A stretch of 15,657 nucleotides of DNA from Desulfobacteraceae bacterium (lineage in GTDB: Bacteria > Desulfobacterota > Desulfobacteria > Desulfobacterales > Desulfosalsimonadaceae): assembly GCA_003551985.1 (NCBI GenBank), contig PUOB01000012.1:1-15657 (forward strand). Direction: 5' to 3'. Below, piece by piece: positions 1-14,771 of the stretch; positions within the stretch are counted from its first letter, which is position 1, and each line of letters begins with the position of its first letter. The position numbers were made by a program, and so were the translations under genes. The notes under the pieces are model-generated. The model ran no database searches and was not told the origin of the DNA. It saw only the letters and a program-made list of their open reading frames with translations.

Positions 1-1036
1 CGGCCTGCCCGTAAAAGCTATATACCCCTGCACCCGGAAACCGTTTCTTCAACGCCTCCAGCAGCTCCGTCGGCATTGCCGATGCGCCGCAGCAAATCTT
101 TGTCAGGCTGGAAAGATCATATCCGCCGAAATCCGGATGACGAAGAATGTCAATCCACAGCGTTGGCGTTGCAAACAACGTGGTCGCTTTGTATGCCTCG
201 ATGGCTTTCAGGATTTCATTGATATCCGGGCCCATCAGCACATTGGTTCCGCCGATATAAAAAACCGGGTTTAAAAAAGCATCCCGCTGCATGCTGTGAT
301 AAACGGGAAGCGCATTGATGCTGACATCCGATGAATCATACTTCCCATCGATGATGCAGCTCATGTATCCGGCAATCAGTGCCTGATTGCTCATTACCAC
401 TGCCTTGGGGCCGACCTCGGTACCGCTTGTATAAACCATCTGGCAGGGCTCCTCGATCCGCAAAACCGTATCGGGCTCCGTATCCGAATATTGTCGGTGC
501 CAGGCATCAAACTCCGTGAACCTGTCATCGGGCGGAAGCTGCCCCATTCCCTGACCGGACCAGATAAGGGCCCTCACGGAAGGCATTGCCCGATAATGGC
601 CGCGAACCAGGTCGTAGAGAGAATCCTCCACAACAAGAACCTTGCTGCGGCAATGATTGATACAATTCTGGATCTCGGATCCGGTGAGCATATAGTTTAA
701 CGGCACATAGACGGCCCCGGCCTTGCAGCACCCGATCCAGGCCAGTATATGATGGAGGGTGTTGTGGGCCAAAACCGCCACGCGGTCAAATTTTTTAACC
801 CCAAGACCGATCAGTGCATTTGCAGTCCGGTTGCATGCCTTTTCAAGCGCCGTGTACGACACGCAGCTGCCCTGAAAAATCAGGGCGGTTTTCTCCGGAT
901 AATGATAGGCGCTTCTACGGATCATATCCGCAACCACCCACCGGTTGGCGCGATTGTAACGATCAGCCAGAAAATCAACACCCTCCCGGCTGAAAGCGTC
1001 AAAAGAAGACGGATCGTTCCCCCTGCCTGTCTGCAT
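1..1036 (-). CDS. AMP-forming acyl-CoA synthetase / fatty-acid-CoA ligase, N-terminal part (truncated by window edge)
   Basis: Class I adenylate-forming enzyme, expected to activate a carboxylic acid (probably a fatty or aromatic acid) with ATP and CoA to acyl-CoA, AMP and PPi. Reading the minus strand from ATG at 1036 gives 345 codons with no stop before the edge. A typical N-domain is visible: YPEKTALIF near residue 47, the phosphate-loop (A3) motif YTSGTEVGPKAVVMSN near residues 203-218, LPVYHSM near 246, TPTLW near 293, and SFYGQA at the very end, which is the start of the A5 YGxTE motif. The missing part should hold the rest of A5 and the C-terminal lid. The A3 loop departs from the usual TSGTTGxPKG, in the manner of the TSGTESxPKG subgroup. 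Start choice: AGGAGGGC at 1051-1044 sits about 8 nt upstream of the ATG. Substrate cannot be told from the sequence. Confidence 0.9.
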   Translation of the reverse strand, partial: MQTGRGNDPSSFDAFSREGVDFLADRYNRANRWVVADMIRRSAYHYPEKTALIFQGSCVSYTALEKACNRTANALIGLGVKKFDRVAVLAHNTLHHILAWIGCCKAGAVYVPLNYMLTGSEIQNCINHCRSKVLVVEDSLYDLVRGHYRAMPSVRALIWSGQGMGQLPPDDRFTEFDAWHRQYSDTEPDTVLRIEEPCQMVYTSGTEVGPKAVVMSNQALIAGYMSCIIDGKYDSSDVSINALPVYHSMQRDAFLNPVFYIGGTNVLMGPDINEILKAIEAYKATTLFATPTLWIDILRHPDFGGYDLSSLTKICCGASAMPTELLEALKKRFPGAGVYSFYGQA

Positions 1037-1458
1037 TATCGAAGCCCTCCTGATATCCAGCACTATTTTAGTTTCATCCCACCGGGTATACGAAATTCCT
1101 GAACAAACCGATCTATGGCGCAGACATTTCGTTTTCCGACAAAAAAACCCGCAGTTGGTTCATCATATATACCCGATAGCATAGTCATTGCAAACAATTC
1201 AATGCTTCCCGACCCCTTTGACCTGATCCGAATACCCGGCGAAGTATGCAAATCCTTCTACAACGACCTTGACTCTCCGTGGAAACAGGAGTAGAAATGT
1301 AGAAAAGATTCCTCCGCTGACGCAAACCGGGCTGCTGCCGAGTAAGTCCACAATGCATAGTGTCCGTACCATACCGGAATTAAAAAAGGCCTTGAAAAAC
1401 AAGAACGCATTGCCTGATGGCGTACAAGGAACAGGAAAACAACTCCGGAAAGAATTTT
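1037..1458. other. Non-coding gap between divergent genes
   Basis: About 420 nt between the minus-strand acyl-CoA synthetase and the plus-strand DHp mini-protein. Short open frames here have no recognisable protein character and no good ribosome binding site. The stretch near 1160-1195 is AT-rich and holds a possible sigma-70 promoter for the synthetase. I see no RNA gene or strong hairpin. Confidence 0.5.
1166..1193 (-). promoter_or_regulatory. Possible sigma-70 promoter of the acyl-CoA synthetase gene
   Basis: On the minus strand TTGCAA (1193-1188) is followed after 16 nt by TATATA (1171-1166). That resembles -35 and -10 boxes and would give a leader of roughly 120 nt before the ATG at 1036. 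The spacing is one short of the ideal 17 and AT-rich gaps often give such matches by chance. Confidence 0.3.
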
Positions 1459-1890
1459 ATGGATCCGTCAACCAGAGAATTGGCTCACGAGATGAACAGC
1501 ATACTGGCCATTATCCGGGAAGAGGCTGGATGGATAGAGGATATCCTTGGCAGAAAAGACATGCACAATCTTGCAAACTACGGGGAGCTTACACGCTCGC
1601 TAACCGAGATCATCCGGCAGACACTTTGCTGCAAGGAAATCGTTCAGGGGTTGCGCAGCTACCCTTCCGCTGACAAAGTGCCCCGGCAGACGCGGCACGA
1701 CCTGAACAACCCGCTTGCGGTCATCCGTGAAGAGGCCGGGTGGATGCAGGATCTTCTGGGAAAAAACGATATAATAAAAAACGCGGATAATGATGAACTG
1801 ACGAACTCTTTATCTGAAATCAAAAGACAGGCAATCCGTTGCAAAGAAACGACACAATGCATTGGAAGGGGTTCCGGGGACCCGGAATAG
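1459..1890 (+). CDS. Tandem histidine-kinase DHp (HisKA-like) mini-protein without ATPase domain
   Basis: A 143-residue protein built almost entirely of two copies of one module. Each copy starts with an H-box-like segment (HEMNSILAIIREEAGW and HDLNNPLAVIREEAGW) followed by a second helix ending in a conserved RQ..xCKE. I count 29 identities over 56 aligned residues between copies. The histidines fall at residues 10 and 80, 70 residues apart. This matches the dimerisation/phospho-acceptor region of sensor histidine kinases (HxxNNPL type), but there is no sensor domain and no HATPase (no N, G1 or G2 box). It may act as a phosphotransfer or decoy partner for a response regulator; that is inference. 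Start: ATG 1459 has GGAAAG 6 nt upstream; an in-frame ATG at 1417 would add 14 residues but has a poor binding site. It converges on the response-regulator operon across a large hairpin. Confidence 0.75.
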   Translation: MDPSTRELAHEMNSILAIIREEAGWIEDILGRKDMHNLANYGELTRSLTEIIRQTLCCKEIVQGLRSYPSADKVPRQTRHDLNNPLAVIREEAGWMQDLLGKNDIIKNADNDELTNSLSEIKRQAIRCKETTQCIGRGSGDPE

Positions 1891-1925
1891 CCCCTGCCCC
1901 GGGCATTCCTCGAGAAATGTAAGGT

Positions 1926-1978
1926 AATACCATTAAAGGGGTGTGCCGGCTATCCCGGCACACCCCTTTAATGGTATT
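1926..1978. terminator. Perfect 24-bp hairpin between convergent genes, likely bidirectional terminator
   Basis: Left arm 1926-1949 and right arm 1955-1978 are exact reverse complements, with a 5-nt loop (CTATC). The stem has a GC-rich core next to the loop and an AT-rich base. It starts 35 nt after the stop of the DHp mini-protein and ends 23 nt before the stop of the opposite-strand membrane-protein gene, where a shared terminator belongs. There is no clean U-tract on either side, so termination would be atypical; the symmetry could also reflect a mobile palindrome. Confidence 0.7.
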
Positions 1979-2001
1979 GGTCATTTATCGGGAAAATAGA
2001 T

Positions 2002-2271
2002 TTATCCGGCAAAATAATCCAGGATAAGCGGGTATATATAAAACAAAACGATTAAAACAGCGGCGCTCAGCGGCCAGAACCACCAGTTCTTTATAAATTG
2101 CGGATCCCAGGTGTTTTTACCCCGCGGCAGGTTGTGCAACGGCTTGAGCATCTGATACACAGGGTCTGTATTTTTGCCGCCATCTTCTTCAGGAGACGGA
2201 TCTTTTACTCCGCCTTCAGGTTCAACGCCCGCATCCGTTTTATTTTCTGCCGAATCCCTTTTCTGGTGCAT
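2002..2271 (-). CDS. Small single-pass membrane protein, unknown function
   Basis: An 89-residue protein. Residues 1-35 are polar and charged (many D, E, K, G, P). Residues about 58-85 form one long hydrophobic segment rich in W, F, L, I and Y (WWFWPLSAAVLIVLFYIYPL), so one transmembrane helix near the C-terminus with a cytoplasmic N-terminal tail is likely. No family recognised. The ATG at 2271 has GGAA 5 nt upstream. It follows the receiver-only response regulator by 56 nt on the same strand, so the two are probably co-transcribed, and a role in tethering or membrane signalling is possible but unproven. It ends next to the 24-bp hairpin. Confidence 0.65.
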   Translation of the reverse strand: MHQKRDSAENKTDAGVEPEGGVKDPSPEEDGGKNTDPVYQMLKPLHNLPRGKNTWDPQFIKNWWFWPLSAAVLIVLFYIYPLILDYFAG

Positions 2272-2327
2272 TACGTTTCCAAAACATCCCTAAAATGTGT
2301 ACACAGTATGCCCGCCTGCCGTGAGTG

Positions 2328-2786
2328 TCAGAACCGGACCGATTTTTCAAGCTTGTCAAGCCGGCTCCGCTCTTCAGCTTTTTTCAATCTTTCGTCCCGC
2401 TCATTTTTCACTTCAAAGGCACCGTTGATTTTTAAAACCAGGTTGTCGATTTCACAAGGCTTCATGAGATAATCATATGCGCCGGTTCGCATTCCTTCGA
2501 TAGCCGTATCAACGGTTCCGTGGCCGGTCAGCAGAACAACCTCGATACCGGGGTTCGATTTTTTGATTTCTGTAAGCGTTTCTATCCCGTCCAGCCCCGG
2601 CATCTTGATGTCCAGAACAATAATATCGACGCTGTTTTCCTTTACATAATCAATCGCTTCCATGCCACTGCCCAGATCCGCCACCTCAAAACCCTTTTCC
2701 CTGAGCCTTTTGGCAAGGGTTGTACGGAATCGTTCTTCGTCGTCCACCAGAAGCAGCCTGGGCCCGCTTTTTTGTCGACTATACAT
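2328..2786 (-). CDS. Receiver-only response regulator with C-terminal helical tail
   Basis: A 152-residue protein with one complete CheY-like receiver domain (residues about 9-125). All phosphorylation-site residues are present: acidic pair D15/D16, phospho-acceptor D59 in VLDIKMPG, T87 in LLTGHG, and K109 in MKPCE. The domain is followed by about 27 highly charged residues (KNERDERLKKAEERSRLDK), likely a short helix or coiled coil, and no DNA-binding or enzymatic output domain. It therefore probably acts by protein contact or as a phosphorelay intermediate. The start at 2786 is supported by AAAGGGGGAT just upstream. A MITE-like repeat lies 64 nt upstream. The adjacent tandem DHp protein, on the opposite strand, is a natural candidate partner. 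Confidence 0.92.
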   Translation of the reverse strand: MYSRQKSGPRLLLVDDEERFRTTLAKRLREKGFEVADLGSGMEAIDYVKENSVDIIVLDIKMPGLDGIETLTEIKKSNPGIEVVLLTGHGTVDTAIEGMRTGAYDYLMKPCEIDNLVLKINGAFEVKNERDERLKKAEERSRLDKLEKSVRF

Positions 2787-2849
2787 CTCATCCCCCTTTA
2801 CGTGGTTTTAAAAATGACGCTTTCGTAAAACGCCCGATGCCTGCCCATT

Positions 2850-3003
2850 AATTAGTGCCTGAGCGAAAACCGTCTTTTTAGCCATTTTCTGTGTCAGACT
2901 CAAATTTTGAAGCATTCGCAAAACGTCGCGATCTGAAGGCTTTGTAAAAATTCCAACATCCGCGCCGACTCGAAAAATCCCGATTTTCGTTCAGCCACTA
3001 ATT
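2850..3003. repeat. MITE-like element with imperfect terminal inverted repeats
   Basis: Left end 2850-2879 and right end 2973-3003 are imperfect inverted repeats of about 30 nt. Both read outside-in as AATTAGTG, then CTGA, CGAAAA, CG and a T-run, with scattered mismatches. The 90 nt between them hold no open reading frame. The size (about 154 bp) and ends fit a small non-autonomous palindromic element. It sits upstream of the minus-strand response regulator, where it could carry or disturb that gene's promoter. No direct target duplication is obvious by eye. Confidence 0.5.
2934..2960 (+). repeat. Dispersed repeat core, copy 1
   Basis: A 27-nt segment beginning TGAAGGCTTTGTAAAAAT. It matches 24 of 27 positions of a segment at 11694-11720 in the same orientation. 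Both lie in non-coding DNA next to palindromic elements, so this is probably part of an interspersed repeat family. Here it is nested within the MITE-like element. Confidence 0.5.
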
Positions 3004-3457
3004 CGGATCACCCTTAAAAAGAATATATTTTGCAAAACATTGCCGGTCAAGGAAAAAGACTTTCTGCCGTCATGAACGAAAAACGGCTTGCAGTGGTTTT
3101 GTCAATGGCAGCCGGTCTGCAAAACAACTATCTTCTCCATCTTGTTAAATTATTGCAAAAACAATGCCTGAAAATCAAGAACGCAATTAAGTGGCTGTAT
3201 CCGCATTCCAAAGGCCGGGTTCAAAACGAAGCCAAACCCGGGGAGTCATTCATTCCCGCATCTGTCATTTTCCTGTGCAACCTCGTTGCTTACACCTGTA
3301 ACCGAATACCGGACACTTTCTGCCCTCCGGGCCCAGTGAAAACAGGACCGCCCCCTGAAACCGGCGCCTCATGAATTCATCCCCCGCTCCGATCACCCGG
3401 CACCGCGTGCGTATTACCGGGAACAAGGCCATCAGGCAAACCTGCTTAACGAAACGA
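3004..3457. other. Non-coding gap upstream of the sigma-54 operon
   Basis: About 450 nt without a convincing gene. An open frame at 3030-3374 (114 codons) has no domain character, a proline-rich tail and no good ribosome binding site. The stretch would be the natural place for upstream binding sites of a sigma-54 enhancer-binding protein. A weak hairpin (CCGGGTT/AACCCGG near 3216-3242) is the only structure noticed. Confidence 0.45.
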
Positions 3458-3473
3458 TGGCATGTACATTGCA
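3458..3473 (+). promoter_or_regulatory. Sigma-54 (-24/-12) promoter of the STAS operon
   Basis: TGGCATGTACATTGCA matches the sigma-54 consensus TGGCACG-N4-TTGCW except for one base, with the required 10 nt between the GG and GC dinucleotides. Transcription would start near 3484, giving a 40-nt leader to the ATG at 3525. This implies that the operon needs RpoN and an enhancer-binding activator, which is not encoded in this window. Confidence 0.72.
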
Positions 3474-3524
3474 CTGCAGACAATAAAAGCCCCTTTCTCC
3501 AAACCCATAACAGGAGATAGCTTT

Positions 3525-3809
3525 ATGGCGGTCAATTTTCGCATTCAGCGCCACAGGAAAAACGATGAGCTTCACCTGAACCTGATCGGCGATTTTGACG
3601 GCAGTTCCGCGATGGAGCTGCTTCATGAACTTCGCCGGCATGTTGGCAAAGCCCGAAAAATATACGTACATACCTGTTTTATATCCTCCATGATACCATT
3701 CGGCGAAGAGGTATTCCAAAAACAATTCCGCCTTTCGGGTAAAAACCCGGACAAACTGGTTTTCACAGGCCGATACGGAAACAGGATGGCATTTCAGAAA
3801 TGTGCCTGA
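3525..3809 (+). CDS. STAS-like small protein (anti-sigma-antagonist-like)
   Basis: A 94-residue soluble protein. The pattern of short beta strands and helices (ELHLNLIGDFDGSSAMELLHEL, then KIYVHTCFISSMIPFGEEVF, then DKLVFTG) resembles the STAS fold of anti-sigma factor antagonists. The usual phospho-serine loop (DSSG) is not evident: HTCFISSMIPFG occupies that region. Regulation by serine phosphorylation is therefore uncertain. Start: ATG 3525 follows CAGGAGATAGCTTT, a good ribosome binding site; an in-frame ATG at 3462 is rejected because it overlaps the promoter's -12 box. First gene after the sigma-54 promoter, 42 nt ahead of the pseudo-receiver gene. Probably a protein-protein switch in the same pathway; a remote fold match only. 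Confidence 0.6.
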   Translation: MAVNFRIQRHRKNDELHLNLIGDFDGSSAMELLHELRRHVGKARKIYVHTCFISSMIPFGEEVFQKQFRLSGKNPDKLVFTGRYGNRMAFQKCA

Positions 3810-3851
3810 CAGGCAGCCAAACCAAAACCTTACCCGGCAGAAGTACGGAAA

Positions 3852-4196
3852 ATGGACCGCATACTGATATTGGATGATCAGCCGCACCGGAGGGAGAAAT
3901 TGTGGCGCTATCTTCGGGAGGCAGGCTATGAGACCGCCGCTTCAGGGACACCGGAACACATTGATCAGGATAGTCTATCCGGCATCGATCTTCTGTTGGT
4001 CAACTTTCACCCCGATGCGGAGCGCACATGGGACGCATATTTCCTCGCCAGGCAGGTACGCCCGAACCTGCCAGTCGTTGTCTATGCGGAAAACAACTAC
4101 CAGGCATTCAGAAGTCTGAAACAGGTGGCGGATTCCGTTTGCAAAAGGGAAACGGAAGGCGGATGTGATTCCGGCCGGTGCATTCGCCGGTCCTGA
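3852..4196 (+). CDS. Degenerate (pseudo-)receiver domain protein
   Basis: A 114-residue protein with the start of a CheY-like fold: MDRILILDDQ gives the acidic pair D8/D9, IDLLLVNFHPD occupies strand 3, PVVVYAEN strand 4, and K98 lies where the conserved lysine belongs. The phospho-acceptor position carries asparagine (N51) and the conserved Thr/Ser position alanine (A79). Phosphorylation in the normal way is therefore not expected; it may be a phosphorylation-independent adaptor. The last 15 residues are polar and look unstructured. It lies 42 nt after the STAS-like gene and 42 nt before the PHP/membrane gene, on the same strand. The ribosome binding site is weak (CGGAAA close to ATG). Confidence 0.65.
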   Translation: MDRILILDDQPHRREKLWRYLREAGYETAASGTPEHIDQDSLSGIDLLLVNFHPDAERTWDAYFLARQVRPNLPVVVYAENNYQAFRSLKQVADSVCKRETEGGCDSGRCIRRS

Positions 4197-4238
4197 CCGG
4201 TTCAAAAAGCATCGGCGCCGTCCGGGGTTCAGGCATGA

Positions 4239-7200
4239 TTGACAACGGTGACCATATTGGAAAACACCACGAACCCGGATTTTTCCCGCTTTTTCTTTGA
4301 CGCGCGGGACCATGAGCTGCTTTCGATCGTCAACGAGATGGTCGAGGGAGACAAGTCCGTTTTGCACGAACAGCGGCGCTTCTTCCACCAGCTCCATCCG
4401 CGTGGAATCAAGGAAATGGCAGAATCCAGGGGGCTCAGAATCGCATATGCCGTGGCCCACCTGCTCGAATCCCTGGACACGGGCGAAGTGTCCCAGCGCA
4501 TAAACGCTCTCAGGGCGCTGCGGGACGAGGCTCTGTTCAGTACGGACCAGGACCTGCAGATGAACACTGCCCGGGTCCTGATCGAAATCATGAAAGACCT
4601 CGTGCGTGCCGCCGGCAGCTATCCCCGCCAGCTTGAACTGGCCCATGATTTTCGCATGGCGGCTTCGGGCAAGCCCCGGATTGTCCGACTTTTCCTGAAA
4701 AAATACCGGCTGCTGGAAATGCCGGAAGAATGGAACCACCTTGCATTTGATGATCATGTGCATGACGCCAACACCAAGGGTCGAAAATCGGCAACCCACC
4801 TGATTATGGATGCATGGATCAAGGGAATCCGAAGGCTGCGGGTAATCTACTACAACTTTATCCGCCCGGACAGCGCCTCCGAACTCATGGAAGCAGCGGC
4901 CGTAATGGGAATCGAGGTCCGCATCGGCATCGAGTTTTCGGTTTCCTTTTACGACGGATTTGCACAGATCATATGGGTTCCCCGCGGATTTGCCGATGCC
5001 GGCGATTTCATCCGATTTTTATCGGACGATGCCGCAGACGCCCTCATGAACGACGGGGGTGAGGTATCGGATTTTCAGCGCAACCAGGTACTCGGCGTCC
5101 TGGAAACCTTTAATCGGGTTCACCGGCCCCTTATCGCCGAAAAATTTGAAATCGACCTTCCGGAACTCGAGGTTGCCGAATTTCTCTCCGGAATCGGCAG
5201 CGGCCAGGCATCCCTGCTCCACCTGGCCAAATTCATCCACCGCAAACTCATGCCGGCGTTTCAAGCGAAAACCGAAACGCTGCAAACAGTTTACGAAAGC
5301 TGCGAAAATGAGGAAAAAAGCCGCATCGAAGCCGTTATCCGGGAAATGGACCGCTTTGACATGGATGCCATCCATGATGTTTACCTGAAACCGGCGTTCG
5401 AAAAACAGCCGACGGAAGAACCGCCGGCCCTGATGCGCTCTTCGGCGCAGGAATTGATCGAACGGCTGGACCGGCTCCGGTCCGGCTATCGCATCACCCT
5501 GAACCTGACCCACATGAAGGTGGAGGATGTACTCGAGATTCTGTATGACTGCAAAGGGGTCATTACGCGCCTGGAAATCTTTAACCTCAAGGATCATGCC
5601 GACGGGATGACCGGGCATATCCCGGCGATCCACGAACTACAGCAGTCCATCAACACCGGCAACGTTATCCATCTGAAACGGATTATCACCGATATCATCC
5701 GAAGACTCGAGGCCGACCCAGAACCTGCCGCTAAAGCGCGCGTCCGCAAAATCAAAGAAATCCTGGCGGACATCGGGTCTTTTAAAGCTATGTATAAAAA
5801 CAAATCGATCAAGGGCCGGATCGGCAGTGATTCAACGGGATATTCGCCACGGCTCTACGGAATGGGACTCGCCGTTCTGGACTCCCTGCCGCGGCGGGCC
5901 CGGAAACAGGTATTACGGGAACATGAAATGCCCCGCCTCGTTATCCCGTTCCATGTGGGCATTTCCTTCCGGGAAACCTGCCGTCTGGACAGCAGCCCAA
6001 CCGGCTTCTTTTCTTTCCTGGCAGAGCAGGTGCGAAAAATACCGGGATGCCGACATTTCGGACTACCCTGCCACGAAGAGTGGGTTGCCCGGGTGGATTC
6101 CATCCGGATGTCAGAAAAGGGCAATATCATAACGCTGGGGGGAGTACACAAGGAAGCGTCAAACAACCTCGTTCCGGAGCCAAAGCCCGAAAAAACGCAG
6201 CCGCGCCGTCAGCCGTGGCGTTACCTGCAAACCCGATGGAAAAATCTGTTAAAGCTGACTGCCGGATTCCTGCCCGCATTTTTCACTTTTCTGCTGACCC
6301 ATGAATGGTGGGTGCTCATGTTTTTCGGAGCATTCCTCTGGTTCGGCATTACCGGGATCCGAAACATTCTTCAGGCCGTTGTCGCAGGCGGCGGCATCCA
6401 CCGATCCTCCCTGCTGCGCTGGAATGATTATATCAGTTGGGAACGACTGGTTGACTCGCTCATGCTTACCGGCTTCTCCGTCCCCCTTCTCGACTATCTT
6501 GTCAAAACGGTGATCATGGACAACGGGCTTGGTGTAACGACAGAGACCGGCCCCCTGATTTTGTATTCGACCATGGCGCTTGTCAACGGGATCTACCTGA
6601 CCGGCCACAACCTTTTCCGCGGCCTTCCGCGGGAAACGGCGTTTGCCAATTTTTATAGAAGCGCCCTGTCCATCCCCGTTGCTTACGCATTGAGCCGTTC
6701 ACTGGGAGTTTTACTGGCTTTTGCCGGGGTGACGAGCGTCAGCATGATTCTGCAGAGCTGGGCTGCAGTGATTTCGAAATTTTCTTCCGACCTGGTTGCC
6801 GGTTTTATAGAAGGCGCGGTCGACCGGGCAAAAAATATCCGGAACCGGGTAAAGGATTACCAGCAGCGCATGAACCAATTTTCGGAGGTATACGCGAAAC
6901 TGGAAATGCTTTTTCCCGAAACCGATGTCCATGAGATGCTCGAAAGACCCCGGCAATGGTTCGAATTACCGGATCCGGCCTTAAAGGACCTGCTCCGGAT
7001 CATGATCATCAATGCCCTGGATCTTTTGTACTTCTGGATGTATCAGCCGCGGGCCAGGACGGCTTTTTCCAGCCTGCTGGCGAATATGCCGGCGGAACAG
7101 CGCCGCGTCATTATCCAGGCCCAGAAAATCCTCGGCATGGAAAGAGAAATCAGCCAGATGTTTATCGACGGCATCGCCGGACGGAATTTCTCAAGACCTC

Positions 7201-7310
7201 TTGCATTTTATCTCGCGCAGTCCGGGAACTATCTCGATGCCGTTGACCAGCTTAACCAATCGATTGAAAGCATTATGCCCCCCAAAAAAAGGAGACCCTG
7301 CAATGAATAA
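4239..7310 (+). CDS. Large protein with split PHP-like metallo-phosphoesterase domain and C-terminal polytopic membrane domain
   Basis: A 1023-residue protein. Residues 1-165 are mostly helical. Residues 168-235 look like the first half of a PHP domain: DDHVHDANTKG (H173, H175), a helix, the VIYYN strand where PHP proteins have TDHN, and VRIGIEFS (E232). The second half seems to resume at 415-540: LNLTH (H425), RLEIFN (E446, N449) and GSDSTG at 529-534, where PHP proteins have GSDxH. The DH pair is Y204/Y205 and the last His is T533, so metal binding may be partial. About 180 residues are inserted between the halves. After a basic linker (645-668) come five or six hydrophobic segments (about 672-708, 737-757, 769-789, 806-846), then an amphipathic helical tail. 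Start: TTG 4239 is assumed, with GTG 4248 as alternative; no in-frame ATG precedes residue 34. The 3' end overlaps the Usp gene by 8 nt. Family not recognised; function unknown. Confidence 0.72.
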   Translation: MTTVTILENTTNPDFSRFFFDARDHELLSIVNEMVEGDKSVLHEQRRFFHQLHPRGIKEMAESRGLRIAYAVAHLLESLDTGEVSQRINALRALRDEALFSTDQDLQMNTARVLIEIMKDLVRAAGSYPRQLELAHDFRMAASGKPRIVRLFLKKYRLLEMPEEWNHLAFDDHVHDANTKGRKSATHLIMDAWIKGIRRLRVIYYNFIRPDSASELMEAAAVMGIEVRIGIEFSVSFYDGFAQIIWVPRGFADAGDFIRFLSDDAADALMNDGGEVSDFQRNQVLGVLETFNRVHRPLIAEKFEIDLPELEVAEFLSGIGSGQASLLHLAKFIHRKLMPAFQAKTETLQTVYESCENEEKSRIEAVIREMDRFDMDAIHDVYLKPAFEKQPTEEPPALMRSSAQELIERLDRLRSGYRITLNLTHMKVEDVLEILYDCKGVITRLEIFNLKDHADGMTGHIPAIHELQQSINTGNVIHLKRIITDIIRRLEADPEPAAKARVRKIKEILADIGSFKAMYKNKSIKGRIGSDSTGYSPRLYGMGLAVLDSLPRRARKQVLREHEMPRLVIPFHVGISFRETCRLDSSPTGFFSFLAEQVRKIPGCRHFGLPCHEEWVARVDSIRMSEKGNIITLGGVHKEASNNLVPEPKPEKTQPRRQPWRYLQTRWKNLLKLTAGFLPAFFTFLLTHEWWVLMFFGAFLWFGITGIRNILQAVVAGGGIHRSSLLRWNDYISWERLVDSLMLTGFSVPLLDYLVKTVIMDNGLGVTTETGPLILYSTMALVNGIYLTGHNLFRGLPRETAFANFYRSALSIPVAYALSRSLGVLLAFAGVTSVSMILQSWAAVISKFSSDLVAGFIEGAVDRAKNIRNRVKDYQQRMNQFSEVYAKLEMLFPETDVHEMLERPRQWFELPDPALKDLLRIMIINALDLLYFWMYQPRARTAFSSLLANMPAEQRRVIIQAQKILGMEREISQMFIDGIAGRNFSRPLAFYLAQSGNYLDAVDQLNQSIESIMPPKKRRPCNE

Positions 7311-8208
7311 TCAAAACAAGCTGCTGGTACTGCTGGACGGGTCCGAACGCGCACTGGATGCCATACGATATATCGCATCCATGAAAAACCTGACATCCAT
7401 GAGTGTTGTTGTACTTTATAACGTATATGCCCATCTCCCCCAGGGCTATCTCGATATGGAAAGACAACCCGAAACCCATGAGGAAAAAACCCGGATCGAC
7501 TCCTGGCGCAATCTCCAGGAAACGGGGCGAATGCAGTACATGAAGCGTGCCGAGAAAATGTTGAAAGACGTCGGCATCGCAGACGTTGAAATCCAGGTGC
7601 GAAAAATCGTCCGGGGCGTTGCCAGGGACATCCTGGCGGAAATCCATGAAGAGTATCTCGCTGTGGTAATGACAAAGCGCGGAATGGGCCTTCTCGCCGG
7701 TCTTCCCGTCGGCAGCGTCGCCAACAAACTGCTGCAGAACATATCCGTTACGCCGGTGATCCTGGTTGCCGAAGGCGCGGATCCGAAGCGGCTGCTACTG
7801 GGCGTTGACGGATCCGAGAATTCCATGCGGGCGGTTTCCTTTGCAGGCAAGGTACTGGACAGCGGACATGCCATCGAATTGGTTCATGTTATCAGAAACA
7901 CGCCCGACCCGGATATCATGATGTCTCAGACGGATATCGAGCGCATAAAAACCGATATGGAAGCAACCTTTGAAAAAATGCGGGAGGAACTCATAAAAAA
8001 AGGAATACCCGCCGAAAATATATCCCAGGAAATCATTGAGGGCGAGTCCAGCCGTGCGGGAGCCCTCCTCCTGGCAGCCGGCCGGAACGGCTGTGGCACG
8101 ATTGTTATCGGAAGGAAAGGTCTTTCTATGACCCGAGACTTCTCCATGGGACGGGTCTCTACCAAGATCACCCAGATGAGCAGCAACCATGCGGTATGGA
8201 TAGTATAG
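7303..8208 (+). CDS. Tandem universal stress protein (two UspA domains)
   Basis: A 301-residue protein with two UspA-type Rossmann-like domains, residues about 6-157 and 162-301, each opening with a strand and DGSE (LLVLLDGSE; LLLGVDGSE). The nucleotide-binding GxxG-9x-G(S/T) motif is imperfect in both: domain 1 has T124xxG-9x-G137S138, domain 2 has G270xxG-9x-G283 followed by Arg. ATP binding could thus be shared or weakened. Usp proteins are cytoplasmic stress or energy sensors. The start at 7303 has AAAGGAGA 8 nt upstream and lies inside the last codons of the preceding gene (8-nt overlap), indicating translational coupling with the PHP/membrane protein. It is the last gene of the sigma-54 operon and converges on the protease-like gene 26 nt away. 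Confidence 0.9.
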   Translation: MNNQNKLLVLLDGSERALDAIRYIASMKNLTSMSVVVLYNVYAHLPQGYLDMERQPETHEEKTRIDSWRNLQETGRMQYMKRAEKMLKDVGIADVEIQVRKIVRGVARDILAEIHEEYLAVVMTKRGMGLLAGLPVGSVANKLLQNISVTPVILVAEGADPKRLLLGVDGSENSMRAVSFAGKVLDSGHAIELVHVIRNTPDPDIMMSQTDIERIKTDMEATFEKMREELIKKGIPAENISQEIIEGESSRAGALLLAAGRNGCGTIVIGRKGLSMTRDFSMGRVSTKITQMSSNHAVWIV

Positions 8209-8234
8209 GCCAGTCTGCCATGCGCGAGCAGCCA

Positions 8235-8750
8235 TCATAAAACTTTTGCATGAATCTCCAAAACAGCCTCGACAATCATTAGAAACATCTTGTCTATCCT
8301 TTTTCGGGCCGCGGGGGTAATCCCGAAACCGGGGCCAAAGGCGTCCCCCTGAACGGAAAAAACCCACGCCGGCAGCTTTTTGTAATACGATGACCGGGCC
8401 AGACCAACAATGGATTCCGGATTCAGAAAATCCGTTTTTACATGGTTTTCAAGCGCTTCCGGCAGAACACGACTGCAGCGCCACCCCCCCTCCAGAACAT
8501 CTCCTGTGGCAACAACAAAAATAACCGAATGCGCATACTTTAGCTCCATGGCAATTTCCGGGCTCAATCGGGGTTTTGTCAGAAACCGGAAACAATCGGA
8601 GACATGGAGTACGCCCGCCAGCCTCTCGACAACAAACGGCCCGATTCCGTCATCCCGGCGCTGTTTGTCGCCACAACCGACAATCAGTATCCGGGCCGCT
8701 TCCGGTCCGTGATTGTCCTGGTTTTGCTGACGGCTTACAGGAATGTTCAT
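8235..8750 (-). CDS. Hydrogenase maturation protease-like protein (M52/HybD family) with altered metal ligands
   Basis: A 171-residue protein. The N-terminus ILIVGCGDKQRRDDGIGP matches the HybD/HyaD-type core (ILxxGxGNxLxxDExxG), and FGITPAARKRIDKM matches the family's GLTP region. These proteases clip the C-terminus of [NiFe]-hydrogenase large subunits after nickel insertion, using Glu, Asp and His to sense nickel. By alignment the Glu is D34 here, the Asp is V79, and the His is E112 (NPESIVGLA versus SPHxLGL), so it may not work as a normal nickel-sensing protease. Start: ATG 8750 follows GGAGGAGCGCCCG; the upstream ATG at 8789 lies inside the preceding gene and lacks a binding site. The gap to the Pat-like gene is 19 nt, so the two form one operon. 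Nearby hyd genes are for [FeFe] enzymes, which do not need this cleavage. Confidence 0.75.
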   Translation of the reverse strand: MNIPVSRQQNQDNHGPEAARILIVGCGDKQRRDDGIGPFVVERLAGVLHVSDCFRFLTKPRLSPEIAMELKYAHSVIFVVATGDVLEGGWRCSRVLPEALENHVKTDFLNPESIVGLARSSYYKKLPAWVFSVQGDAFGPGFGITPAARKRIDKMFLMIVEAVLEIHAKVL

Positions 8751-8769
8751 CGGGCGCTCCTCCATCCCG

Positions 8770-11439
8770 CTAACAACCATCAAAGTCAAGCTTCAGTTCA
8801 TATTCCCGGCTGCCGCGGTGTTGCTTTATGTCAAACCCCATTTTTTCCGCCATCGCCAGCATCTTGGTATTGCCGGGCAGAACGATCGCCCACACGGTTT
8901 TAAAGCGTTTCTCGCGGGCAAAGGCCAGGCAGCGTTTCAGCAGCGCGGCACCGATCCCCTTACCCTGCCACTGATCGGCCACTACCACAGCGAACTCGGC
9001 GGATTTCCGGTTTCCTTCAGTCATGATCCGGCTGACCCCCAGCATTTTCTCCCCGCCTTCGGGTGATGGTGCGATCGCCACCATGGCGATCTCCCGGTCA
9101 TAGTCGATCTGGGTATACCGGGCAAGCATGGCGGGCGGGAGCCGCTTGATGATATTAAAAAAACGGTAATAGACACTTTCCGATGACAAGGCATTGAACA
9201 TCTCTTCCAGCAGGGGGGCATCTTCCGGGCGAATGGGACGAAGCGTCAGCCGTCCCACGCTTTCAATATCCACTTCTTCTTCGTATTGATTCGGATAGGG
9301 GCTGATAACGAGATGGAAAGGGGATTCCGTTTCAGGCAGAGCGACAACCGCCCGGGCATCCGCGGCAACCACCCGGCCGTTGTCCACTGCCAGCGGATTG
9401 ATTTCCACTTCCCTGATTTCCGGAAAATCGATAACCAGGTGAGAAAGCCGGATCAAAATCGATTCGAGCTGCACGATATCCAGCGCATGACGGTTCCTGT
9501 AGCCGCCCAGCAACCGGTAAACTTTCGTTTCCTCGATCATACGCCGGGCCAGCAGACGGTTCAGGGGAGGCAGTCCAACACATCGATCCTTCAGTATCTC
9601 GGCCAACGTGCCGCCCAGGCCGAAAAGCAATACCGGCCCGAAATTTGCGTCCTTCCTGGCGCCGGCCATCAACTCGAATTCCCCCTGCGGCAGCATTTTC
9701 TGTACGCTGACGCCAACACGGGGCGACGGATTATTTCCGGCCGCTATCCCCCGGATTTGCTTATATGCCGCACGAACGGCTTCCGGACGCCGTATATCAA
9801 GCACGACCCCGCCCATGTCGCTCTTATGAGCGATATCCGAAGAAACGATTTTCAATACAACGGGATACCCGATCTTTTCGGCAATGCGTACCGCTGCCTC
9901 GGCATCTGAGACCTGAACGGGAAGGTTGACGGGGATACCGTAAGCCGCCAGAAGCCGCTTGGCTTCAATCTCATCCAGAAGCCCCTCTTTTCTTGCCAGG
10001 CCGGCACCGACAATCCGGCGCGCGGCCTGGCGGTCAAAATCAAGCCGGTCCGGCAGCTTTCGGGGAACCTGCTGCAACGCCTCGATATTGCGGCGATAGT
10101 GATAGAGATCGATAAACGCCCGGACGGCCCGCTCAGGAGAATCGAAAACAGGAATACCCGAGCGGTTGAATATCACCCGGCCGGCATCCGCATCCTTTCC
10201 GCCCAGCCAGGCGGTAAAAACCGGAAATGAGAGGTCTTTCAAAAAGGCTGAAAGGATATGCGCCGTTCCGGCGGGTTGGGCAGGGGCATAAGGGACCTGC
10301 ATGATAAGCAGACCATCGACTTCTTTTGCGTGAACAAGAATGTCAACAGAGCGCTTGTAGCGCTCCGGGGTAGCATCGTCAAGGATATCCAACGGATTGG
10401 AGCGGCTCCAGCCAATCGGCAGCACCGCGTCCAGCTTTATAATGGTCTCCGGAGACAGACTTGCAGGAGCCAACCCGTAATCCAGCAAGGCATCGACGGC
10501 CATAATGCCGGGGCCGCCCGCGTTTGTGACGATTGCCAATCCGCTGCCCTTCGGGCCGGTCCGCCTGCCGATAAACGCCGTGCAGTCGAAAAGCTCGGCA
10601 AACGTTTTGACCCGGACAATCCCGGCGCGTTTAAAGGCCGCATCATAGACAGCGTCTTCGCTGGTCAGCGATCCGGTGTGTGTGACTGCGGCAGCGGCCC
10701 CCTCTTCGGAGCGGCCGGATTTGAGAACTATGATTGGCTTGACGCGGGATACGGCACGCGCAGCGCTCATAAAACTGCGTATGCGGGAAAGATTTTCCAT
10801 ATACATCACAATACTGCCAACTTCCGGTTCGCTGCCCAGGTAATCGATGAAATCTGCGAAATCCACGTCGAGCATTGTGCCCGTATTGATAAAATAGCTG
10901 AAACCGATATGTTCCTTGACGGCAAAATCCAAAATGGCCTCGCTTATGGCGCCGCTTTGGGACAGAAAGGCCATTTTCCCGGCCGCCGGCATCCGGCTGG
11001 ACAGGCCGGCATTCAGCTTATACAGGGGCGAGATGATGCCTGGGCAATCTGACCCGATGACCCGCAGCCCGCTTTTACGAAGCACGTTATGGGTATCTGC
11101 ACGAAAAACCGCTTTTTCAGCACGCCTGCTGCTGTGAGGCAGCAAAACCACCCCGCCAACCCCTTTTCCCGCACACAATGCGATTAATTCAGGGACGGTG
11201 AACGGGGGTGCGTCAATCAAGGCCAGGTCAACCGCATCCGGCATGTCCCGAATCGACTTAAAAGCCCTGCATCCCAGCACCGCATCAGCGTCGGGATGAA
11301 CGGGATGAATGCGGCCTGAAAACCCACCGCCGATGAGATGTTTCAGGACAGTCTGCCCATGGCCCGAATCCTCCTTTCCGAAGCCGACAATTGCAACGGC
11401 GTCCGGTGAAAAAATTCTTTGGAGGCTTTCAACGCTCAT
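8770..11439 (-). CDS. ADP-forming acyl-CoA synthetase fused to GNAT acetyltransferase (Pat/YfiQ-like architecture)
   Basis: An 889-residue protein. In order: CoA-binding Rossmann domain (about 7-130), succinyl-CoA-ligase-like domains (about 145-450), ATP-grasp domain (about 485-705) and GNAT N-acetyltransferase (about 728-885, acetyl-CoA loop QGKGIG at 825-830). Size and order match protein acetyltransferase Pat/YfiQ, which acetylates lysines of proteins such as acetyl-CoA synthetase. Residues used for catalysis by ADP-forming acetyl-CoA synthetases all appear present: phospho-histidine H254 in THTGS, E215 in MYMEN, and the ATP-grasp H538 in DIAHKSDMGG. The ligase half may therefore be active (acyl-CoA + ADP + Pi to acid + ATP + CoA) rather than only regulatory. 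The start at 11439 has AGGAGAGGGTC immediately upstream; a consensus sigma-54 promoter lies about 65 nt further up. First gene of an operon with the protease-like gene. Confidence 0.92.
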   Translation of the reverse strand: MSVESLQRIFSPDAVAIVGFGKEDSGHGQTVLKHLIGGGFSGRIHPVHPDADAVLGCRAFKSIRDMPDAVDLALIDAPPFTVPELIALCAGKGVGGVVLLPHSSRRAEKAVFRADTHNVLRKSGLRVIGSDCPGIISPLYKLNAGLSSRMPAAGKMAFLSQSGAISEAILDFAVKEHIGFSYFINTGTMLDVDFADFIDYLGSEPEVGSIVMYMENLSRIRSFMSAARAVSRVKPIIVLKSGRSEEGAAAAVTHTGSLTSEDAVYDAAFKRAGIVRVKTFAELFDCTAFIGRRTGPKGSGLAIVTNAGGPGIMAVDALLDYGLAPASLSPETIIKLDAVLPIGWSRSNPLDILDDATPERYKRSVDILVHAKEVDGLLIMQVPYAPAQPAGTAHILSAFLKDLSFPVFTAWLGGKDADAGRVIFNRSGIPVFDSPERAVRAFIDLYHYRRNIEALQQVPRKLPDRLDFDRQAARRIVGAGLARKEGLLDEIEAKRLLAAYGIPVNLPVQVSDAEAAVRIAEKIGYPVVLKIVSSDIAHKSDMGGVVLDIRRPEAVRAAYKQIRGIAAGNNPSPRVGVSVQKMLPQGEFELMAGARKDANFGPVLLFGLGGTLAEILKDRCVGLPPLNRLLARRMIEETKVYRLLGGYRNRHALDIVQLESILIRLSHLVIDFPEIREVEINPLAVDNGRVVAADARAVVALPETESPFHLVISPYPNQYEEEVDIESVGRLTLRPIRPEDAPLLEEMFNALSSESVYYRFFNIIKRLPPAMLARYTQIDYDREIAMVAIAPSPEGGEKMLGVSRIMTEGNRKSAEFAVVVADQWQGKGIGAALLKRCLAFAREKRFKTVWAIVLPGNTKMLAMAEKMGFDIKQHRGSREYELKLDFDGC

Positions 11440-11504
11440 GACCCTCTCCTGCAGCGCTTCCCACCGCGGATGCCCGCGACATTAAAAAAGGTTAACAACT
11501 AATT

Positions 11505-11520
11505 AGCAAGTTACGTGCCA
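11505..11520 (-). promoter_or_regulatory. Consensus sigma-54 (-24/-12) promoter of the acyl-CoA synthetase/GNAT operon
   Basis: The minus strand reads TGGCACGTAACTTGCT, a full match to TGGCACG-N4-TTGCW with correct spacing. Transcription would start near 11494, leaving about 55 nt of leader before the ATG at 11439. Expression should depend on RpoN and an enhancer-binding protein acting from about 11560-11700. Confidence 0.85.
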
Positions 11521-11693
11521 TCAAAGGAGATGCACCCGCAAGGCTGGTTTTATGCTGAATGCCCGTCGCAATATGACGCGGCAATGCGGCGCTTGCAAAA
11601 CAACCCCTGCCTGATGTCAACTGCGCGGAGACATTGTGTCTTCTTTCATATGACATCCGTGGGCCACATTCGTTTCCCGGCAGCACCGAATAT
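11521..11693. other. Non-coding stretch upstream of the sigma-54 promoter
   Basis: About 170 nt with no credible gene; short frames on both strands lack domain character. GATGTCA (11613-11619) and its reverse complement TGACATC (11651-11657) lie 38 nt apart, about 120-160 nt upstream of the predicted sigma-54 start. That is a plausible but weak enhancer-site arrangement. Confidence 0.3.
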
Positions 11694-11720
11694 TGAAGGC
11701 TTCGTAAAAATCCCAATATC
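11694..11720 (+). repeat. Dispersed repeat core, copy 2
   Basis: A 27-nt segment beginning TGAAGGCTTCGTAAAAAT, matching the segment at 2934-2960 at 24 of 27 positions. It continues into CTTCGTTGCGCGCAA and ends just before the REPIN-like palindrome, so the whole 11694-11847 stretch may be a composite repeat insertion in the hydG leader. Confidence 0.5.
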
Positions 11721-11745
11721 TTCGTTGCGCGCAATTTTTGAAGAA

Positions 11746-11847
11746 CATAGGATGCGCTGACGAAGGAAGCGCATCATAAATGCCTTTCTCCTGCGGGATT
11801 TGCGGCGGTGCTTAAACGATGCGCTTCCTTCGTCAGCGCATCCTATG
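11746..11847. repeat. REPIN-like nested palindrome (two inverted REP-type units)
   Basis: Arms 11746-11775 and 11818-11847 are perfect 30-nt reverse complements around a 42-nt spacer. Each arm is itself a hairpin: GATGCGCT, a 9-nt loop, then AGCGCATC. Two palindromic units in inverted order joined by a short spacer is the layout of REP doublets (REPINs), which are moved by REP-associated transposases. It lies 165 nt upstream of the hydG start. Transcripts through it would form a very stable structure. No transposase gene is in the window. Confidence 0.75.
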
Positions 11848-12012
11848 GCGATGGCAGGTGATACGACTTTTACGCCGGTTTTAAAAGCCTGTGAGCGTCT
11901 CCGGATCCGGCGGGAGAGGCCATGGCGCCCGTGTCGGCCCGGTTTATGCAATATAGTTTTCAACAGACAGAAAAACCGCTGCATTTCAATTGATCCAAAT
12001 GGGGGTGGCGCT

Positions 12013-13413
12013 ATGAAAAATATGGATGCCGGTGCTGTCAATGAAGCACAAATTGCGGAAGTGCTGAAGCACAAGGCGAGTGCTGATGCCGGCCGGGTAC
12101 GTGACGTATTGGACAAGGCACTGGCGCTCAAAGGGCTCAGCAGCAGCGATGTGGCCGTGCTGTGCGGCGTCAGCGACCCGGTTCTATTAATGGAAATGTT
12201 CGCCGCAGCCAAGTCCGTCAAGGAAACGATCTACGGCCGGAGACTGGTGCTTTTTGCGCCGCTGTATGTATCCAACCTGTGCGCCAACGATTGCCTGTAT
12301 TGCGCCTTTCGCGCGCGCAACACCCCCCTGCGGCGCCGCGCCCTGACGCAAAGCGAAATCCGGCGTGAAACGGAAATCCTTGTCTCCCAGGGACACAAGC
12401 GCGTGCTTTTGGTTGCCGGGGAATCCTATCCGGCAGAAGGCTTCGACTACATCACAGACAGCATCGCCACGATTTATGATACCCGGGTGGACAACGGTGA
12501 AATACGCCGCATCAATGTCAACATTGCCCCGCTTTCGGTGGATGAATTCCGCAGGCTGAAGGCCGCAAAAATCGGCACCTACCAGTTGTTCCAGGAAACC
12601 TACCACCGGGAAACCTATGCCAGAATGCACCCTTCCGGCCCCAAAGCAGATTACGACTGGCGAATAACCGCCATGGACCGCGCCATGATGGCGGGTATCG
12701 ACGACGTGGGCATCGGCGTCCTGTTCGGCTTGACGGACTGGCGCTTTGAAATCCTGGCGCTGATGCAGCACGCCGAACACCTGGAGAAACATTTTGGCGT
12801 GGGACCGCATACCATAAGCGTTCCCCGCCTGGAGCCGGCCGCCGGCTCGGAAATCGCGGCGCATCCGCCGCACCCGGTCAGCGATGTGGATTTCCGGAAA
12901 ATCGTCGCCATACTCCGCCTGGCCGTGCCCTACACCGGCATGATCATGAGCACGCGGGAAACGGCCAACCTTCGGCGGGAGACATTCGCACTGGGCGTCT
13001 CCCAGATATCGGCCGGCAGCCGGACCAACCCCGGCGGCTACCTGGAAAACGAAGCCGAAGATGCCGACGGTTCCCAGTTCCAGCTTGGCGATCACCGCTG
13101 TCTCGACGAGGTGATCCGGGATGTTGCCACCCTCGGCTACATCCCCTCCTTTTGCACTGCATGCTACCGGCTTGGCCGTACGGGCGGGGATTTCATGGAT
13201 CTTGCAAAACCGGGCAAAATCAAGGAGCACTGCGATCCCAACGCCCTGTCAACGTTCACGGAATACCTTCTCGATTACGGTTCGGAGGAAACCCGCGGGG
13301 CAGGAGACCAGTTGATCCGCAGCGCGCTTGCATCCATGGAAAACCGTCCGAAAAGAACTTCAGAGCGCCTGATGCGTATGGTTCACGAAGGAAAACGGGA
13401 CTGTTTATGCTAA
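12013..13413 (+). CDS. hydG: [FeFe]-hydrogenase H-cluster maturase HydG (radical SAM tyrosine lyase)
   Basis: A 466-residue protein, normal length for HydG. HydG cleaves tyrosine to p-cresol and dehydroglycine and converts the latter to the CO and cyanide ligands of the H-cluster, delivered as an Fe(CO)2CN synthon. Seen: radical-SAM cluster motif CX3CX2C at C90, C94, C97 (CANDCLYC), and the C-terminal CX2CX22C motif at C381, C384, C407 (CTAC...HC) that holds the auxiliary iron-sulfur cluster with the dangler iron and separates HydG from ThiH. Start: ATG 12013 follows GGGGGTGGCGCT; the frame stays open back to 11800, but that part is repeat DNA and is not counted. The gap to hydF is 43 nt, so these are co-transcribed. 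No clear promoter was found in the leader. Confidence 0.96.
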   Translation: MKNMDAGAVNEAQIAEVLKHKASADAGRVRDVLDKALALKGLSSSDVAVLCGVSDPVLLMEMFAAAKSVKETIYGRRLVLFAPLYVSNLCANDCLYCAFRARNTPLRRRALTQSEIRRETEILVSQGHKRVLLVAGESYPAEGFDYITDSIATIYDTRVDNGEIRRINVNIAPLSVDEFRRLKAAKIGTYQLFQETYHRETYARMHPSGPKADYDWRITAMDRAMMAGIDDVGIGVLFGLTDWRFEILALMQHAEHLEKHFGVGPHTISVPRLEPAAGSEIAAHPPHPVSDVDFRKIVAILRLAVPYTGMIMSTRETANLRRETFALGVSQISAGSRTNPGGYLENEAEDADGSQFQLGDHRCLDEVIRDVATLGYIPSFCTACYRLGRTGGDFMDLAKPGKIKEHCDPNALSTFTEYLLDYGSEETRGAGDQLIRSALASMENRPKRTSERLMRMVHEGKRDCLC

Positions 13414-13456
13414 TGGCAGCAACGCTATTATTTTTCGAAGAAAGGAAACGGGTGTT

Positions 13457-14746
13457 ATGAGACAAGCGCCTAAGAGCTTCCGCCTTCACATCGGCATATT
13501 CGGCCGCCGCAACGTGGGCAAATCGAGCCTTGTCAACGCCATTTTCCGCCAACAGGTATCCGTTGTCTCGGCGATTGCCGGCACCACCACCGACCCCGTG
13601 GAAAAACCCATGGAGCTGCTTCCTCTGGGGCCGGTCCTGTTCATCGATACCGGCGGTATCGACGACGAGGGCGAGCTTGGCAACCTGCGGGTGGACAAGA
13701 CCCGCCGGGTGTTCGACCGTACCGATATCGGGGTGGTGGTCACTGATGAAGGCCGGTGGGAAACGTTCGAAGAGGCCATTTGTGGTGAGCTTCAAAGTCG
13801 TGGCATTCCATTGGTGGTGGTTTTCAACAAGGCCGACGTCAAAGCGCCTGCCCCCGATATGCCAGAAAAGCTACGCGAATCGGGGATCCCCGTGGTCGAA
13901 ACAGACGCCCTCACCGGCCGCGGTCTTTCCGATTTACGGCAGGCCCTGATCGACACCGCACCGGATTCCTATATCGATCATGCTGGAATTTTTTCAGATC
14001 TCGCCGGCCCGGGGGACATAGTCGTCCTGGTGGTCCCCATCGACAGTGAGGCGCCAAAGGGCCGGCTTATCATGCCGCAGGTCCAGTCGATCCGGGACCT
14101 GCTCGACAACGACGCTTACTGCATTGTCGTCCGGGAGCACGGCCTGAAAAAGGTGTTCGGGTCGCTGAAAACAACGCCCAGGCTGGTGGTAACCGATTCC
14201 CAGGCGTTTGCACAGGTCGCCGCAGACACCCCGCCCGGGATACCGCTCACCTCGTTTTCCATTCTTTTTGCCCGCTTCCGGGGAAACCTGCCTGCCCAGG
14301 TGGAAGGGACAATGGCTATCGATGAGCTGCGGCCCGGCGACCGGATACTGGTGGCCGAGCACTGCAGCCACCACCCCATCGGCGAAGATATCGGCCGCGT
14401 CAAAATTCCCAGGTGGCTGATCCGGTACACGGGGGGGAAACTGCGATTCGACCATGTACAGGGGCACGACTTTCCCGACGATGTATCGCCCTATAGCCTT
14501 GTCGTTCACTGTGGGGCCTGCACCGCCAATCGCCGGGCAATGTTGACGCGGATCATGCGGTGCCGCCGCGCGGGCGTTCCCATCACCAACTACGGGCTGA
14601 CCATCGCTTTCAGCCTGGGCATTTTCGAACGGGCCCTGGCGCCTTTTCCCGCTGCACTCGAAATTTACAGGGCCAAAAAACATAAGAAAAAATACCTGGC
14701 TTTCAAAGGATATGCCAGCGCCACCGACGCTTCCATTATTGAGTAA
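13457..14746 (+). CDS. hydF: [FeFe]-hydrogenase maturation GTPase and scaffold HydF
   Basis: A 429-residue protein. HydF carries the assembled diiron subcluster and transfers it to apo-hydrogenase HydA. Seen: N-terminal Era/TrmE-like GTPase domain with P-loop GRRNVGKS (16-23), switch threonines AGTTTDP (41-47), DTGG (64-67) and NKAD (124-127); a middle dimerisation region; and a C-terminal iron-sulfur domain with CSH (C303, H305) and HCGAC (H351, C352, C355), the conserved CxH...HCxxC cluster-binding pattern. All hallmark residues are present, so it should be functional. The start at 13457 has AAAGGAAACGGG upstream. It sits between hydG (43 nt) and hydE (25 nt) in one apparent operon. Confidence 0.96.
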   Translation: MRQAPKSFRLHIGIFGRRNVGKSSLVNAIFRQQVSVVSAIAGTTTDPVEKPMELLPLGPVLFIDTGGIDDEGELGNLRVDKTRRVFDRTDIGVVVTDEGRWETFEEAICGELQSRGIPLVVVFNKADVKAPAPDMPEKLRESGIPVVETDALTGRGLSDLRQALIDTAPDSYIDHAGIFSDLAGPGDIVVLVVPIDSEAPKGRLIMPQVQSIRDLLDNDAYCIVVREHGLKKVFGSLKTTPRLVVTDSQAFAQVAADTPPGIPLTSFSILFARFRGNLPAQVEGTMAIDELRPGDRILVAEHCSHHPIGEDIGRVKIPRWLIRYTGGKLRFDHVQGHDFPDDVSPYSLVVHCGACTANRRAMLTRIMRCRRAGVPITNYGLTIAFSLGIFERALAPFPAALEIYRAKKHKKKYLAFKGYASATDASIIE

Positions 14747-14771
14747 ATTTAATTGAATATCAGGGACTTCG

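Follow-up and report, generated by a model that had tools for sequence, protein, structure and literature searches.

We analysed a 15,657-nt stretch of DNA from a Desulfobacteraceae bacterium (contig PUOB01000012.1, positions 1 to 15,657, assembly GCA_003551985.1; hereafter the window), in which four co-directional genes, here called A to D, follow a sequence that resembles a sigma-54-type promoter. The gene group comprises the following features:

3458..3473, + strand: -24/-12 (sigma-54-type) promoter-like site TGGCATGTACATTGCA, 51 nt upstream of gene A
3525..3809, + strand: gene A, encoding a STAS-like protein of 94 aa that lacks the phosphorylatable Ser motif
3852..4196, + strand: gene B, a 114-aa receiver-like protein with Asn at the phospho-acceptor position
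4239..7310, + strand: gene C, a 1023-aa PHP-membrane protein with a TTG start
4737..6107, + strand (C residues 167-623): PHP domain of the RNase AM type with a helical insertion; alpha residues H173, H175, E232 and D531 kept, beta and gamma residues lost
6216..7274, + strand (C residues 660-1012): helical domain in the membrane, conserved, with about six hydrophobic helices as read from the structure model and hydropathy
7303..8208, + strand: gene D, a 301-aa tandem universal stress protein (Usp)

The open reading frame (ORF) calls give spacers of 42, 42 and -8 nt, the last being an 8-nt overlap of C and D, and in ORFs, order, strand and spacing they agree with the initial annotation of this DNA. 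The near-consensus -24/-12 promoter that the same annotation placed before A was also recovered. Scored against the sigma-54 consensus TGGCACG-N4-TTGCW, the site at 3458-3473 has one mismatch among the 12 specified bases, with TGG at -24 and GC at -12 in the correct spacing. The window contains two matches with at most one mismatch, against a mean of 0.15 in shuffled sequence (200 shuffles, one of which reached two); the other match is the site before gene F listed below. The site before A is kept in two relatives, L004 (14/16, weighted score) and L213 (15/16). This excess over shuffled sequence and the retention in both relatives indicate that the promoter-like site exceeds chance, and its sequence suggests that sigma-54 uses it.

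The four genes had been proposed to form one system, with conserved co-occurrence of their families as the check. Scanning the contigs confirmed 367 relatives of C, and 80 loci were retained; at least 720 nt of upstream sequence was available in 71 of these and at least 300 nt of downstream sequence in 73. Genes were called as longest ORFs, and some neighbour slots are not real genes. A and B adjoin C in only one of the 80 loci, L004, and a tandem Usp directly after C was found in none of the 73 with sufficient downstream sequence. A second set, overlapping the first, comprised 30 C loci from genomes related to that of L004 (at least 700 nt upstream in 28, at least 300 nt downstream in 25). 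Here too A and B lie beside C in the genome of L004 only, and no Usp was detected at E<=1e-3. L213, outside both sets, is the second relative with A-B-C and the site. The C proteins of the A-B-C relatives are 70% identical to that of the window in G003, the genome of L004, and 76% identical over the piece in G356; the D orthologues of both genomes are not on the contig of C, and that of G356 follows a gene of the F family described below. In G002, with a C 71% identical, A (67%) stands directly before the D orthologue (61%) and C is on a different contig. Across 98 relatives of G003, C is present in 50 (E<=1e-100) and A-family genes in 45, and the two are seldom adjacent. The operon is real but local; it is not one conserved four-gene system. 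What stands of the proposal is a sigma-54-type unit of local extent, A-B-C and the site being shared with two relatives; the four-gene linkage was not seen in these relatives or at the other C loci.

These data bear directly on the idea that A, B, C and D cooperate as a single membrane-tied energy or stress sensor. The shared orientation, the 8-nt C/D overlap, the common promoter-like site, the retention of A-B-C in L004 and L213 and a mild enrichment of Usp genes beside C would all fit such a sensor. However, the isolation of L004 among the 71 loci with enough upstream sequence, the restriction of a directly following tandem Usp to the window, the position of A next to D in G002, where C lies elsewhere, and the rare adjacency of A and C across the G003 relatives make it improbable.

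Further elements on the opposite strand of the window are needed to interpret the unit:

8770..11439, - strand: gene F, an NDP-forming acyl-CoA synthetase-like protein with a C-terminal GNAT domain (Pat-like), a recurrent neighbour of the A or D families
11505..11520, - strand: -24/-12 site with a perfect consensus match, 65 nt upstream of the first ATG of gene F
2328..2786, - strand: receiver protein I (PF00072, E 2e-31), divergent from A, with relatives that recur near A and D

The domain order of F, synthetase then GNAT, is one we take to be Pat-like. Families A, B, D and F recur in relatives in varied combinations and orders: A-B-F in L214, A-D in L212, L222 and L226, and A-D-F in L215, downstream of what reads as an NtrC-type activator. 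D occurs with F, receiver I or both in L233, L238, L239, L241, L250 and L251, and F-family genes adjoin tandem Usp genes in relatives. Among the D rows, 11 of 28 have a site scoring at least 14/16 within 250 nt upstream, compared with 2 of 50 among control ORFs (p 1e-4; two G293 genes were counted twice, in L245 and L255, and the L242 gene was counted through L254). For the A rows the figures are 10 of 37, compared with 4 of 83 among controls (p 0.001). The majority of A and D rows have no such sigma-54-like site. Since all of these pieces are present in the window, F being preceded by a -24/-12 site of its own, we take the regulon to consist of A, B, D and F together with I, and C to be a guest in it. 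Our preferred interpretation, to which we give a probability of roughly 0.6, is a local sigma-54-type unit of two separable parts, a recurring A/B/D/F set and an independent gene of the C family. Another possibility would be that C entered the operon through chance rearrangement and is functionally unlinked to A, B and D. C loci have no shared neighbour family, the most frequent one within 1.5 kb being found in 5 of 81, as chance placement would predict; the persistence of A-B-C and the site in the window and two relatives speaks against it, and we regard it as rather unlikely.

The products of A and B look like signalling adaptors devoid of their usual phosphorylation residues, as the initial annotation had noted. 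The A protein of the window has no Pfam match, and STAS or STAS_2 was matched by 4 of the 20 A-family members scanned (best 7e-5); the first family alignment comprised 20 members, from 30 loci with a match. In STAS anti-anti-sigma factors the phosphorylatable Ser sits in a DSxG motif, which A does not have; most of the family reads PFG at that place. B matches Response_reg with E 0.06, short of the cut-off, and position 51, that of the phospho-acceptor, was read from the sequence as Asn, both in the window and in L004. A search with B of 99 genomes of the phylum (E<=1e-3) gave, among the matches listed, 27 from 22 genomes in open frames of 151-1096 aa. Near relatives of B are present in L211, L213 and L214 (48-52% identity), and weaker ones in L220 and L252. 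The assignment of the fourth gene as a tandem Usp is borne out by PF00582, which matches D in two stretches (E 9e-25; 88.3 bits against a cut-off of 24). The Usp ATP motif is G-x2-G-x9-G-[ST]; inspection by eye found the first half of D without the first Gly, and Arg in place of Ser/Thr in the second half.

Protein C matches no Pfam or NCBIfam family above cut-off. Its AlphaFold2 (AF2) model (pLDDT 83, pTM 0.80) contains the PHP barrel of RNase AM, and both profile and fold comparisons match RNase AM (YciV, E. coli rnm) and Cv1693 (2yb1). Profile alignment by hhalign connects C with RNase AM at 7e-5 directly and at 6e-13 through a sister family, C2, with controls; no hhalign match was obtained between C and a single RNase AM, and no match of C to Pfam PHP. 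The likeness consists of the PHP barrel with its helical insertion and of retained equivalents of H13, H15, E72, D255 and H143. Unlike RNase AM, C lacks the beta and gamma ligands and mostly R141. It also has N-terminal helices amounting to about 150 aa, insertions of greater length, and the membrane domain, for which no PDB match was found at E <0.1.

In the passage of PMC9410882 that lists the metal ligands of E. coli RNase AM, these are H13, E72 and D255 for the alpha site, E72, H83 and H198 for beta, and D20, H45 and H257 for gamma. Among 233 C sequences (229 distinct, many of them close relatives) the alpha residues are retained almost throughout: H173 in 233, H175 in 226, E232 in 226 and D531 in 222. 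The gamma equivalents are replaced, D20 by Lys in 231, H45 by Tyr in 223 and H257 by Thr in 217. At the beta site, H83 is His in 9 sequences and H198 in none, in either candidate column. Arg occupies the position corresponding to R141, a phosphate-pocket residue, in only 4 of the 233, and H328 of the insertion, equivalent to H143, is conserved in 232. With alpha kept and beta and gamma lost, so that the three metal sites of RNase AM are not all present, C looks like a divergent member of the RNase AM branch of PHP proteins, reduced to one metal site. The structure model and the alignment thereby support the initial description of C as a large membrane protein with a degenerate phosphoesterase-like domain.

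Such a reduced site raises the question of whether C is a pseudoenzyme whose PHP domain senses a ligand, either a nucleotide or a lipid head group, without catalysis. This is a serious possibility, at somewhat less than even odds. Two of three metal sites are lost, as is nearly every R141 equivalent, and the D20A substitution of a gamma-site residue disrupted the activity of E. coli RNase AM, according to the passage concerned in PMC9410882. On the other hand, the retention of alpha residues in 222 to 233 of the 233 sequences and of H328 in 232 exceeds what a dead site should keep.

In the C2 family (L122 and P0241-P0360), three entries bear the source names 'PHP domain-containing protein' (P0243) or 'predicted metal-dependent phosphoesterase TrpH' (P0276, P0277). 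The architecture of C2 is identical to that of C from end to end, with an hhalign E of 4e-51 for the PHP part and 26-42% identity in pieces. In contrast to C, the 118 C2 sequences keep H83 in 114 cases and R141 in 113; the H198 column holds His in 83 and Arg in 29 of them, and the D255 position holds Asp in 81. Names found among the C2 entries include Desulfococcus, Desulfonema, Riflebacteria, Ozemobacteraceae, Acidobacteriota and Spirochaetia.

We found no description of the C family, whose members are about 1000 aa long. At least 2357 clusters match C at E<=1e-3 among the 7994 candidates sharing most words, a figure that may include C2 proteins; proteins with 98% and 85% identity to C are known from close relatives of the window's bacterium. 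C-type matches occur in 30 of 247 genomes of the phylum (counting G146, with C2). RNase AM itself was matched in 53 of 59 phylum genomes at E<=1e-3, many of the matches being weak, and in 34 of 59 at E<=1e-25. Four sampled genomes with C (G001, G038, G042 and G053) also have an RNase AM-like gene (E <=1e-28), so that C is there an addition and not a replacement. Some genomes have two or three copies of C, and at L054 (54-6790) a pair of convergent C-type genes is separated by 23 nt, and the second of them shares 46% identity with the query.

The gene neighbours of C offer some indication of its function. Across 130 distinct C and C2 loci other than the window, glycerophosphodiester phosphodiesterase (GDPD) genes occupy 6 of the 224 slots adjacent to C or C2 and none of the 808 other slots (p 1e-4). 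GDPD is also the commonest co-directional neighbour of C (6 of 58 scanned), every other family being seen at most twice; these 58 were Pfam-scanned out of 67, nine having been omitted by eye as spurious short ORFs. Four of the six cases belong to one clade, with GDPD downstream, and two to C2 clades, with GDPD upstream (L122 and L187). We consider this neighbourhood the best hint to the function of C, which would be in glycerophospholipid head-group turnover. In L122 (6425-10060) the GDPD gene ends one base before the start of C2, and dnaN- and gyrB-like genes were noticed by eye a few kb further on.

Several observations weigh against our interpretation of the unit and of C. D directly behind C was seen only in the window. 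Usp genes are moderately enriched beside C (5 of 224 slots, with L149 accounting for two, compared with 3 of 808; p 0.015, again outside the window), so that a link between C and Usp may exist. At L149 a single-domain Usp gene stands on either side of C on the same strand, 210 nt after and 24 nt before it; at L031 one lies 17 nt before C on the same strand, and at L040 a tandem Usp is downstream of C with one gene between. Of 142 C rows, 7 have a site scoring at least 14/16 upstream, compared with 18 among 844 other genes (p 0.056), and C may accordingly be under sigma-54 control elsewhere; these rows include repeats, as L081 is L040 and the pairs L196/L030 and L051/L058 look near-identical. 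The GDPD neighbours are few and, with four of six in one clade, perhaps reflect two or three independent events. The direct profile match of C to RNase AM has a modest probability of 62% and does not extend beyond the first part of the domain, and the residue equivalences in the second part depend on C2 and on motif reading. Finally, we take H15, the second His of the HxH motif, to be an alpha ligand. The passage of PMC9410882 names H13, E72 and D255.

From the observed anatomy, homology, metal-residue loss and neighbour recurrence we infer how the genes may be expressed, what C may do and act upon, and how the unit of two separable parts could work. Under stress, an enhancer-binding protein would activate both -24/-12 sites. 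A and B would serve as phosphorylation-independent adaptors. D would bind nucleotide and might be acetylated by F, by analogy with the Pat acetyltransferase of Mycobacterium smegmatis (MsPat). The helical domain of C would anchor its PHP part at the membrane, where C may bind or cleave a membrane-proximal phosphoester, most likely from glycerophospholipid turnover.

The likeness to Pat/Usp pairs lies in the synthetase-GNAT order of F and in the identity of D as a Usp. MsPat is built differently from F. As stated in the relevant part of PMC8556138, MsPat acetylates a USP and is activated by cAMP; the latter is a difference from F. Stress genes under sigma-54 control are also part of the regulome described for a related bacterium, Desulfovibrio vulgaris (PMC4641369); a term search of its main text found no mention of an acetyltransferase, an acyl-CoA synthetase, DVU0261 or 'universal stress protein'. 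A bolder proposal, speculative and unlikely in its entirety, is that C is the founding member of a family, undescribed but widespread in Desulfobacterota, of PHP proteins that are embedded in the membrane, have one metal and act with GDPD in glycerophospholipid turnover at the inner membrane face, and that in the window C was drawn into a stress regulon of the sigma-54 Usp-Pat kind.

Other genes of the window complete the picture of the locus. A gene at 8235-8789 (- strand) overlaps the end of F on the same strand and encodes a hydrogenase-maturation-protease-like protein (TIGR00072, E 1.6e-10, short of the cut-off), a relative of which lies 12 nt after C in L004. HydG (11800-13413, + strand) and HydF (13457-14746, + strand) are adjoining [FeFe] hydrogenase maturation proteins. 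The ORF at 1417-1890 (+ strand) encodes a short protein with a HisKA match, two segments similar by eye and no ATPase domain; a similar protein is encoded near A in L004.

In the C family, an enzyme fold that is known is fused to a membrane domain that matches no known structure. The C and C2 branches keep different metal-site residues, so that the role of one PHP metal becomes testable. That genes for Usp, Pat-like, STAS-like and receiver proteins recur along with sigma-54-type sites is suggestive of a stress regulon of sulfate reducers, which predicts a partnership between Usp and Pat. If C has indeed been recruited into such a Usp-Pat regulon, this would tie lipid turnover to protein acetylation.
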